A DNA stretch of 64,000 bases from the NCBI GenBank assembly GCA_003569365.1, contig BGOS01000005.1, positions 1 to 64,000 of the forward strand, read 5' to 3'. This document shows, piece by piece, positions 32,238 to 34,952 of the stretch (its first letter is position 1; every line of letters begins with the position of its first letter). The DNA comes from Anaerolineaceae bacterium. Lineage in GTDB: Bacteria; Chloroflexota; Anaerolineae; Anaerolineales; UBA11657. The notes under the pieces are model-generated. The model was not told where the DNA came from, did not search any database, and saw only the letters and a program-made list of their open reading frames with translations. The translations under genes were made by a program, and so were the position numbers.

Positions 32238-32348
32238 ATGCTCTTCACCCGTGAAAATCTGATTGCCGTTTTGCTGTGCCTGCTGCTCGCTGCGCTTGTG
32301 ATCATCAGCGCGGACAACGCGCCGCAATGGATCTACCAGGGGTTTTAG
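32238..32348 (+). CDS. 36-residue single-span membrane microprotein with C-terminal WIYQGF (DltX-like acyl-shuttle candidate)
   Basis: The reading is short: MLFTRENLIAVLLC, a hydrophobic span (residues about 8-24), then ADNAPQWIYQGF and stop. The charged N-terminus and short polar tail predict N-in/C-out topology, placing the last residues outside. In the Dlt pathway the microprotein DltX ends in FIYNEF, whose tyrosine accepts the acyl group from the MBOAT protein DltB and hands it to DltD. Here Tyr33 in WIYQGF sits at the same place, and the next two genes are an MBOAT (14 bases downstream) and an SGNH protein. Function is therefore inferred by motif and context. There is no clear Shine-Dalgarno. 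It is too short for most gene callers. Confidence 0.75.
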   Translation: MLFTRENLIAVLLCLLLAALVIISADNAPQWIYQGF

Positions 32349-32361
32349 GGCGCGCCCAACT

Positions 32362-33795
32362 ATGACTCTGGTGCAAGTCGTTGCACTTGCAGCGCTGGCT
32401 GCCGCCGCCCGCTTCTCCGGTTCACTGGAGCGCCCGGCTGTGCGCACTTGGATATTGTGCCTGAGCAGCGCACTGGTTTTGTTCCTGTTGCAGCCAGTGA
32501 CCGGTGTACGCCAGTTGGACTACTGGCTGCCGCTTGGAACGCTGCTGATGTGTGCGGCAGTCTGGTTTATAACGCGGCCGGCCGCACAGGGGCTGGCACG
32601 CGAAGACACAGTCACGGCGACCGCCGTGGCCGCACTTTGTATTGCCGTCTCACTTACGCGCTACCTCGCACCAGAGTTGCGGTTCTCGACGGGACGCGCG
32701 CCGCCATCGGAAATTGTGGCGCTGGTACTCGCAATTTTCGCCGGGTTGATGGCGCTAACGCTGCGCCACAAAGGACGCGACCTCGGTTCACTGCCGGCCG
32801 TACTGGCGGTGCTTGCGCTCTTCATCCTGCTTAAAACAGATGCGCTGGCCACGCTTGCCGGCAGTGCGGTGCGCGGGTTGACCGGGCAGGACACCACGCT
32901 GGCAAGCAGCAGTGATCTGCGCTGGCTGGGCTTTTCATATATCGCGTTCCGGCTCTTGCACGCGCTGTTCGAATTTCGAAACGGGAAGATGCCGGCGCTG
33001 ACGCTGCGGGAATTTTTGGCATGGGTGATCTTCTTTCCCGCGTTAGTTGCCGGCCCGATTGACCGCGCAGCACGGTTTTCGCAAGATCTGCGCGCGCCAC
33101 TTGCGCCCGCGGACGCGGACCTGCGCGCCGGCATCGGCCGCATTGCCAGCGGGCTGGCAAAGAAGTTTGTTGTGGCAGACAGCCTCGCACTCTTCTGCCT
33201 CAACGAGATGAATGCTGCACAAGTCAACTCGACTGTCTGGCTTTGGATTTTGCTTTATGCATACGCCCTGCGGTTGTACCTTGACTTCTCCGGATACACC
33301 GACCTTGCAATTGGCATCGGCAACTTGTTTGGCGTACGCCTGCCAGAGAACTTCAATGCGCCCTACTTGAAGCCCAACCTCACCCAATTTTGGAATAGCT
33401 GGCACATGTCTCTGGCGCAGTGGTTCCGCGCGCACTTCTTCAACCCCGCAACGCGTGCACTGCGCGCGAGCCCGCGCAACCTGCCGCCGGCGCTCATCAT
33501 TCTGATCACGCAGCTGGCCACGATGTTGTTGATTGGCGCATGGCACGGCCTAAGCGCCGGCTTCTTAATCTGGGGCTTTTGGCACGGCGCGGGATTGTTT
33601 GTGCACAACCGCTGGGCAGAATGGATGCGCCCGCGCATGGCCGCGCTGGCCCCTACTCCGCGAACTGCCCACGTGCTGCAAGTGGCGGGCGCGGTGCTTA
33701 CATTTCACTATGTGGCCTTGGGATGGGTCTGGTTTGCAATCGCAAGCCCGCAGTTGTCGTGGTCAGTGATGCTGCGCCTGTGGGCACTCGCATGA
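32362..33795 (+). CDS. MBOAT-family O-acyltransferase (DltB/AlgI-like)
   Basis: A 477-residue polytopic membrane protein with many hydrophobic spans. Family landmarks are FSYIAFRLLHALFEF, FFPALVAGPIDRAARFSQDL, LYLDFSGYTDLAIGIGNLFGVRLPENFNAP, FWNSWHMSLAQWFR and GAWHGLSAGFLIWGFWHGAGLF. His408 in FWHG corresponds to the catalytic histidine, and the His in NSWHMSL is also conserved. It would take an acyl group from a cytoplasmic thioester (acetyl-CoA or acyl carrier) and pass it outwards. Its C-terminus (MLRLWALA) lacks the acyl-shuttle motif, which is instead on the microprotein 14 bases upstream. Its stop overlaps the SGNH gene start (ATGA). Confidence 0.93.
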   Translation: MTLVQVVALAALAAAARFSGSLERPAVRTWILCLSSALVLFLLQPVTGVRQLDYWLPLGTLLMCAAVWFITRPAAQGLAREDTVTATAVAALCIAVSLTRYLAPELRFSTGRAPPSEIVALVLAIFAGLMALTLRHKGRDLGSLPAVLAVLALFILLKTDALATLAGSAVRGLTGQDTTLASSSDLRWLGFSYIAFRLLHALFEFRNGKMPALTLREFLAWVIFFPALVAGPIDRAARFSQDLRAPLAPADADLRAGIGRIASGLAKKFVVADSLALFCLNEMNAAQVNSTVWLWILLYAYALRLYLDFSGYTDLAIGIGNLFGVRLPENFNAPYLKPNLTQFWNSWHMSLAQWFRAHFFNPATRALRASPRNLPPALIILITQLATMLLIGAWHGLSAGFLIWGFWHGAGLFVHNRWAEWMRPRMAALAPTPRTAHVLQVAGAVLTFHYVALGWVWFAIASPQLSWSVMLRLWALA

Positions 33796-34952
33796 CCACC
33801 AACCCCACCGTACAACTGCAGCGGGCTGGCGCGCGCACACTTGCGCGCCTGCTGCTAAAAACCGGTGTGCTGTTTCTGATTTTGAATTTGGTGTTTGCGT
33901 GGTCAAATCCACTGCCCGCACTCGGCCGGATATCCGCCTACAACAACTTGCTTCCTGGCCGCACGCGTCTGCCATACGGCGAGAACCCGGCGCGTGCATA
34001 CAACTTAAGCCTGTACTCATTGCCCGCGATGCTCGCGTCGCATGAGCTGGCAGCGGCGCCCGTGCCGGTGCCGGCAAGTGAGTTCCGTGTGATTGTGATC
34101 GGGGACTCCTCAGTGTGGGGATATCTTTTGCCATCCGCTGACACACTCACTGCGCAACTAAACCGCAGCAACACGACCATGCCAGACGGGCGCTTGCTGC
34201 GCGCGTACAACCTCGGTTACCCCGTCATGTCGCTCACAAAAGATTTACTGCTGCTGGACATGGCACGCAGCTTCACTCCGGACCTTGTGGTTTGGTGTGT
34301 AACCCTCGAGTCGTTTCCAACAGACAAGCAGCTCTTCCCGCCCCTGCTGCAAAACAATCCGGATGCAGTGCGGGCGCTCGCGGCCCGCTACGCGCTGCGC
34401 ACGGCGGTAGATGATGCGCGCTTTGTGCAGCGCGACTTCCTTGCCCGCACGCTGCTGGGCCAGCGCCGCAATCTGGCAGACCTGCTGCGCCTGCAGCTGT
34501 ATGCCCCGTTGTGGGCTGCCACCGCCATCGACCAGGAAATTCCGGAAACTTATGTGCGCCGCATGGAGGACTTGCCCGCCGATCTCACATTCGCCGGCTT
34601 CACGCCGGGAACACTGACGCAGCAAGATCTGGCATTTGATGTGCTGGCAGCCGGGTTCGAAGCTGCGCGCCCGGCGGAATTGCTGCTTGTCAACGAGCCT
34701 ATGTTTGTGAGTGCCGGCGCCAACAGTAACCTGCGCTACAACTTCTTTTATCCACGCTGGGCTTATGACCAGTACCGCAGCTGGCTGGCCGACGCAGCCC
34801 GTGAAAATAACTGGCGCTACGTTGATTGGTGGGATGCGGTGGCCGCTGCTGAATTTACAGACAGCGCTGTGCACATGTCGCCAGCCGGAACGGGCCAGCT
34901 TGCCAACAAACTGGCAGCCGCCATCATTGCGGCAGCTGCCAGCCCGCACTGA
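33792..34952 (+). CDS. Membrane-anchored SGNH-fold protein (DltD/AlgX-like acyl transferase candidate)
   Basis: A 386-residue protein with one N-terminal span (about 20-36) and an extracytoplasmic SGNH domain. The catalytic serine lies in VIVIGDSSVWG (GDS, Ser106). The C-terminal block TDSAVHMSPAGTGQLANKLA supplies Asp357 and His361, spaced DxxxH. By analogy with DltD, its serine would receive the acyl group from the microprotein tyrosine and move it to a polymer hydroxyl. ATG 33792 overlaps the MBOAT stop by four bases; the longer frame from 33420 lies inside the MBOAT gene and is rejected. The acceptor polymer is unknown. Confidence 0.85.
   Translation: MTTNPTVQLQRAGARTLARLLLKTGVLFLILNLVFAWSNPLPALGRISAYNNLLPGRTRLPYGENPARAYNLSLYSLPAMLASHELAAAPVPVPASEFRVIVIGDSSVWGYLLPSADTLTAQLNRSNTTMPDGRLLRAYNLGYPVMSLTKDLLLLDMARSFTPDLVVWCVTLESFPTDKQLFPPLLQNNPDAVRALAARYALRTAVDDARFVQRDFLARTLLGQRRNLADLLRLQLYAPLWAATAIDQEIPETYVRRMEDLPADLTFAGFTPGTLTQQDLAFDVLAAGFEAARPAELLLVNEPMFVSAGANSNLRYNFFYPRWAYDQYRSWLADAARENNWRYVDWWDAVAAAEFTDSAVHMSPAGTGQLANKLAAAIIAAAASPH

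Follow-up and report, generated by a model that had tools for sequence, protein, structure and literature searches.

A conserved membrane microprotein in Anaerolineae and a probable Dlt-like relay for another acyl cargo

Introduction

The Dlt pathway of teichoic acid D-alanylation (DltX, DltA, DltB, DltC and DltD) comprises an adenylating enzyme, a carrier protein, an MBOAT acyltransferase without a C-terminal tail, a free single-span microprotein and a membrane-anchored SGNH transferase. The microprotein, DltX, has a single transmembrane segment, with a short cytoplasmic N-terminus and an extracytoplasmic C-terminus (PMC5541007). In both DltX and PatA, the tyrosine of a C-terminal hexapeptide is acylated, and the group is then passed to a serine of the SGNH protein (PMC12148441). 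MBOAT/SGNH pathways other than Dlt have been described as having neither a DltX-like microprotein nor a carrier protein (PMC12148441). In the O-acetylation systems of PatA/PatB and AlgI type, the MBOAT itself bears the motif, on two additional transmembrane helices fused to it. Lipopeptide, polyketide and mycobacterial lipid pathways have loading modules in which a stand-alone ACP is paired with a fatty acyl-AMP ligase (FAAL), and there the partners are NRPS or PKS enzymes.

Here we describe an operon of Anaerolineae that resembles each of these systems in part, and that was examined starting from a stretch of 64,000 nucleotides (the window). It contains the same five kinds of component as Dlt, its microprotein likewise ends in aromatic-x-Tyr-x-x-Phe, and its MBOAT groups with DltB by fold and tree. 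In contrast to Dlt, its ligase is assigned to the FAAL family and not to DltA, the curated Dlt models are passed by none of the five proteins, the genes run in the order X-B-D-(lipoprotein)-C-A, and additional conserved secreted lipoproteins are present. An MBOAT and an SGNH protein with an acyl-Tyr shuttle motif are shared with the PatA/PatB and AlgI-type systems, but here a separate microprotein bears the motif, and there is a linked ACP. The pairing of FAAL and ACP is that of the loading modules, although the partner is a membrane relay of MBOAT, microprotein and SGNH protein. The Anaerolineae operon is an exception to the published statement on non-Dlt pathways (PMC12148441).

Results

A conserved microprotein gene

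The microprotein gene occupies positions 32238..32348 of the forward strand and encodes a single-span, DltX-like protein of 36 residues (sequence MLFTRENLIAVLLCLLLAALVIISADNAPQWIYQGF), which reads 'MLFTRENL...ADNAPQWIYQGF' and terminates in the hexapeptide WIYQGF (32328..32345, +). The gene for an MBOAT acyltransferase follows after 13 bases, and the start of the SGNH gene overlaps the MBOAT stop through an ATGA. An earlier sequence-only reading of this DNA had described these features correctly, except that it gave the first gap as 14 bases. No Pfam or NCBIfam model matched the microprotein.

Among 39 aligned microprotein sequences A10, P29, W31, Y33, Q34 and F36 are invariant, and the C-terminal hexapeptide is the best conserved segment. 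Synonymous codons are used inside the motif (ATC, ATT or ATA for Ile, TAT or TAC for Tyr, CAG or CAA for Gln, all four for Gly, TTC or TTT for Phe). Since homologues are encoded near an MBOAT in 49 of 55 loci, residues are invariant and the motif codons vary synonymously, the ORF is a real and conserved gene, beyond what chance would produce.

Lysine and arginine residues average 2.8 on the N-terminal side of the span and 0.03 on the C-terminal side, with an N-side excess in 39/39 sequences. This excess predicts an N-in/C-out orientation and therefore an extracytoplasmic Tyr33, in agreement with the relay that the earlier reading had proposed. The layout is that of DltX, with a single hydrophobic span, a positive-inside bias and a C-terminal motif in which Trp replaces the first Phe, and WIYQGF is placed as is the FxYxxF acyl-shuttle motif in DltX and PatA (motif as given in PMC12148441). 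It is the conservation of the hexapeptide, its codon variation and this position that make Tyr33 the proposed acyl acceptor. Anaerolineae carry a conserved, previously unannotated membrane protein of 36-45 residues that appears to hand an acyl group across the membrane between enzymes, a role that DltX has for D-alanine in Gram-positive bacteria.

Linkage of microprotein and MBOAT across genomes

We compared 55 MBOAT loci (L002-L056), a set that includes the window locus and in which some genomes are present twice via two collections; L001 is the same locus as L002 and was counted once. Short ORFs ending in W[IL]YQ[GA]F are found near the MBOAT in 49/55 loci (47 with WIYQGF, one with WLYQGF and one with WIYQAF), which is the conservation beside MBOAT genes of relatives that the earlier reading had called for. 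The other six loci are two truncated contigs (L047 and L052), one locus with a tailed MBOAT (L056), and L034, L038 and L041, whose genomes each encode one microprotein elsewhere.

Across 151 relatives, the microprotein occurs in 70/72 genomes with a window-type MBOAT and in 0/79 genomes without one (Fisher 2e-41, with genomes treated as independent); the two MBOAT genomes without it (G014 and G032) have partial MBOAT matches only. The distance to the MBOAT match is at most 600 nt for 68/70 of these microproteins, and for the remaining two the MBOAT match is split in two. The order in L040 is microprotein-SGNH-MBOAT, with all three genes kept. A 400-genome sample of the phylum contained the microprotein in 34 genomes, all from the same class. 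A plasmid search yielded no microprotein match, viral contigs yielded two pattern matches but no relative, and a sample of 299 genomes from the phylum to which L056 belongs, which had no positive control, contained no microprotein.

The nine nearest relatives (G001-G009, from the genus and family of the window) show an MBOAT match only in G003, where it is a distant paralogue; this pattern could reflect gene loss, transfer, or assemblies that are only 68-93% complete. One of the nine, G002, has a FAAL although it has no MBOAT match. More than one microprotein copy is encoded in genomes G457, G462 and G529. Locus L050 also has two copies (477-597 and 1670-1790), one before an SGNH gene and one before an MBOAT gene, on a contig that contains an N and may be misassembled.

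A DltB-like MBOAT without the fused tail

The MBOAT gene (32362..33795, +) encodes a DltB-like protein of 477 residues, the sole PF03062 match in its genome (2.2e-20), which scores 219 bits on TIGR04091 (cut-off 375). Its closest solved structures are DltB (PDB 6bug, E 3.5e-41). Pairwise alignment to 6bug pairs His348 (codon 33403..33405, +) with DltB His289 and His395 (codon 33544..33546, +) with DltB His336, and these two replace the His408 that the earlier reading had named for mutation. A model of the orthologue in L053 aligns with 6bug at Z 27.7 over 359 residues.

The protein lacks the C-terminal tail of two transmembrane helices that bears FxYxxF in PatA/AlgI-type MBOATs, so that it has the DltB combination of MBOAT fold, both histidine equivalents and a tail-less C-terminus. 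Tailed MBOATs have 141-192 residues after the catalytic WHG, except for one that gave 422 because its first WH[G/A] match is located elsewhere; the number is 66 in DltB and 77-87 in window-type proteins, among which one incomplete row has 53. Twenty other MBOATs from the same order were inspected: 17 have a fused [F/N]xYxxF tail (FIYFQF, FLYGNF, FIYQGF and others), two are the DltB of true dlt operons and one ends otherwise, and a microprotein is found near 0/20 of them. In a maximum-likelihood tree, 30 window-type MBOATs form one group (support 100/99), and the same tree, an unrooted one with just two DltB sequences, separates window-type proteins plus DltB from the tailed ones with support of 100/99.

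The MBOATs of L053, L042 and L044 are shorter and lack the first hydrophobic segment, with two more missing in L053, which suggests that N-terminal MBOAT spans are dispensable. Another genome encodes two tandem tailed MBOATs ending in FIYFQF (L103 3521-8400), both with a partner gene behind them whose product has about 340-360 residues, a few kilobases upstream of its microprotein operon.

The SGNH protein

The SGNH gene (33792..34952, +) encodes a membrane-anchored, DltD-like protein of 386 residues with a weak PF13472 match. Its structure model (pLDDT 88.8) has an N-terminal helix at residues 5-38. Ser106, the GDS nucleophile (codon 34107..34109, +) and the serine named in the earlier reading, is invariant together with His361 in 16 aligned SGNH sequences. 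The canonical Asp of block V, at three positions before His361, is absent from these 16 sequences, which have Ser or Thr there (with one Ser-Gly variant nearby); Asn or Asp is frequent one position further upstream.

The model aligns with DltD 3bma at Z 14.6 (265 residues, rmsd 4.3), and for DltD chains in general the alignments span 265-279 residues at Z 14.1-14.6. Comparable Z values are obtained with TesA-like and other GDSL proteins, for which about 170 residues are aligned. In these model comparisons Z alone does not place DltD clearly above other GDSL folds, and the longer aligned length is the sole point in favor of DltD. The predicted protein has a DltD fold with an N-terminal membrane anchor and catalytic Ser and His.

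In L053 the microprotein, MBOAT and SGNH genes share one reading frame and form a natural read-through. The AF2 model of this fusion (pLDDT 83.7, pTM 0.60) has confident domains, with the SGNH part matching DltD at Z about 14 over 284-296 residues, while the motif and linker (residues 31-53) have pLDDT below 50.

A FAAL-family ligase with its own ACP

Clustering of neighboring genes from 45 loci gave a recurrent order: a lipoprotein of about 130 residues without a Pfam match, the microprotein, the MBOAT, the SGNH protein, a secreted GDSL-like lipoprotein of about 316 residues, an ACP of about 82 residues and an AMP-binding enzyme of about 560 residues. Fatty acyl-AMP ligases are the best-scoring family for the AMP-binding enzyme (342-350 bits on NF006624, a subfamily model with a cut-off of 600), and its top structures are FAALs in PDB (3pbk, E 5e-70). 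The segment from A5 to the next motif spans 51-54 residues in the operon ligases (39 in L042) versus 32 in DltA. By sequence, the operon ligase is classed in the FAAL family and paired with a dedicated ACP; membership of this family does not fix the chain length. The ACP lies beside the FAAL in 26/26 loci. FAAL is found in 68/72 MBOAT genomes versus 6/79 others, and lies within 8 kb of the MBOAT in 44/68.

The window genome encodes its FAAL on another contig (C22:92531-94282, - strand, = L128 6532-8283; 57% identical to the FAAL of L036), near which tblastn located the ACP (C22:95395-95652, - strand, = L128 9396-9653). With both encoded on C22, the system of this genome is complete but split, as it is in only some of the genomes, and their role there rests on relatives for the same reason. 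A PF00550 scan of the genome reported a FAS-type AcpP as sole carrier, the relay ACP scoring 20.0 bits, below the 20.8 cut-off. The sequence-only reading had observed that DltA and DltC are lacking nearby, which is true locally but misleading, as a carrier and an adenylating enzyme are present on C22 and are operon-adjacent in many relatives.

Between ACP and FAAL on L128 lies a frame recognized by eye as an FkbM-like methyltransferase, with GDSL-like lipoproteins nearby. The secreted GDSL-like lipoprotein found 3' of the SGNH gene often has GDC, with Cys at the nucleophile position, and in other cases GDS (examples are L103 12595-13524, L113 8760-9686 and, on C22 of the window genome, L128 1703-2866).

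Comparison with genuine Dlt proteins

Genome G045 encodes both a genuine dlt operon and a microprotein operon, and G145 also has DltX, DltA and DltB. The true Anaerolineae DltX proteins from these two genomes, ending in FIYQGF and FIYQGY, reach 32.1 and 33.9 bits with PF12459, whose cut-off is 25, whereas the window microprotein and two relatives have no match to this model at E<=1. From G045, DltA (571 bits, cut-off 559.85), DltB (446, cut-off 375), DltC (73, cut-off 52) and DltD (170.8 and 174.7 on TIGR04092 / PF04914, with a cut-off of 150 for 171) all pass. All five window-type relay proteins fail: the window SGNH protein has no match to TIGR04092 / PF04914, the best DltA score in the window genome is 89 bits versus 559.85, and the linked ACP has 16 bits on the dltC model (cut-off 52). 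The microprotein profile does align with the two Anaerolineae DltX sequences over 21 columns (probability 86.5%, E 4.6e-6); this likeness covers a short stretch, and convergence could account for the motif. On these sequence comparisons, we interpret the system as a second, paralogous Dlt-like relay in which a FAAL replaces DltA. The Asp of the A4 motif was dropped as a discriminator of D-Ala and fatty acid, as both FAAL ('HDMG') and DltA ('FDLS') align an Asp.

Discussion

We consider with good confidence that these genes are best explained as an acyl relay of Dlt type that carries another cargo. According to family membership and linkage, the FAAL-family ligase would adenylate a carboxylic acid, for which a fatty acid is the likeliest candidate, and load it onto the dedicated ACP. 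By homology to DltX/DltB and PatA, the MBOAT would accept the acyl group at the cytoplasmic face, from its thioester linkage to the ACP, and His395 and His348 of the MBOAT would esterify Tyr33 at the extracytoplasmic C-terminus of the microprotein. The acylated motif may then swing to the SGNH protein, where Ser106 would take the group and pass it to an extracytoplasmic acceptor, the whole path leading from FAAL through ACP, MBOAT, Tyr33 and Ser106 to the acceptor. We infer Tyr33 acylation and docking into the MBOAT funnel by analogy. The earlier reading had proposed a Dlt-like relay with a free motif, and this part stands, supported by conservation, linkage, complementarity with tailed MBOATs, charge bias and the DltB- and DltD-like folds. 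Its account of the donor does not: it had argued from the missing DltA and DltC to, for example, O-acetylation, which is disfavored by the dedicated ACP and FAAL-family ligase. Given these two genes, the donor is most likely acyl-ACP, and a fatty acyl cargo, more likely than acetyl, is probable from the sequence assignments.

The idea that would revive O-acetylation, namely that the system, like PatA, draws on acyl-CoA to transfer O-acetyl or other short acyl groups while FAAL and ACP serve another pathway, finds some support in the description of characterized non-Dlt MBOAT/SGNH pathways as CoA-dependent (PMC12148441) and in imperfect linkage, FAAL being missing from 4/72 MBOAT genomes, present in 6/79 without MBOAT, and not within 8 kb in 24/68. 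We nevertheless think it unlikely, given the co-occurrence of FAAL and MBOAT (68/72 versus 6/79), the common direction and arrangement of their genes within the operon at many loci, the constant company of ACP and FAAL (26/26) and an MBOAT that is of the ACP-using DltB type, and not of PatA type, by tail and tree. Still less credit is due to the view that the operon is a divergent but authentic D-alanylation pathway: the five part types are alike, the MBOAT reaches 219 bits on TIGR04091, and the fold of the SGNH protein and the microprotein are DltD- and DltX-like, but true dlt proteins from the same order pass the curated models for DltX, DltA, DltB, DltC and DltD that window-type proteins fail, G045 holds both systems, and the ligase is of FAAL family, with an A5-A6 segment longer than that of DltA.

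Equally improbable in our estimation is a microprotein that acts as a structural subunit only, joining MBOAT and SGNH protein without its conserved Tyr bearing an acyl group. In favor of this view, DltX too forms a complex in which it is bound to both DltB and DltD (PMC12148441). However, the hexapeptide is the most conserved part of the protein, with an invariant Tyr and terminal Phe, its position is that of the acyl-Tyr motif demonstrated for PatA and DltX (PMC12148441), and the microprotein motif takes the place of the fused tail of other MBOATs. Returning to the acyl relay fed by ACP, we lean towards the proposal that a fatty acyl group of long or medium chain length crosses the cytoplasmic membrane on the Tyr of the free microprotein, to lipidate an extracytoplasmic polymer or protein, which would extend the DltX mechanism from D-alanine to fatty acids.

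In the open-access literature, we found no paper joining FAAL, MBOAT and ACP, and none joining DltX and Chloroflexi; the gene of 36-45 residues named here goes undetected by every curated model applied. A conserved operon that unites a microprotein and a carrier with a different ligase implies that the design which pairs a carrier with a microprotein is not confined to D-alanine. Should the cargo be a fatty acid, a protein tyrosine would be the vehicle on which an activated lipid chain crosses the membrane, and this would point to an undescribed lipid-modified component of the Anaerolineae envelope.
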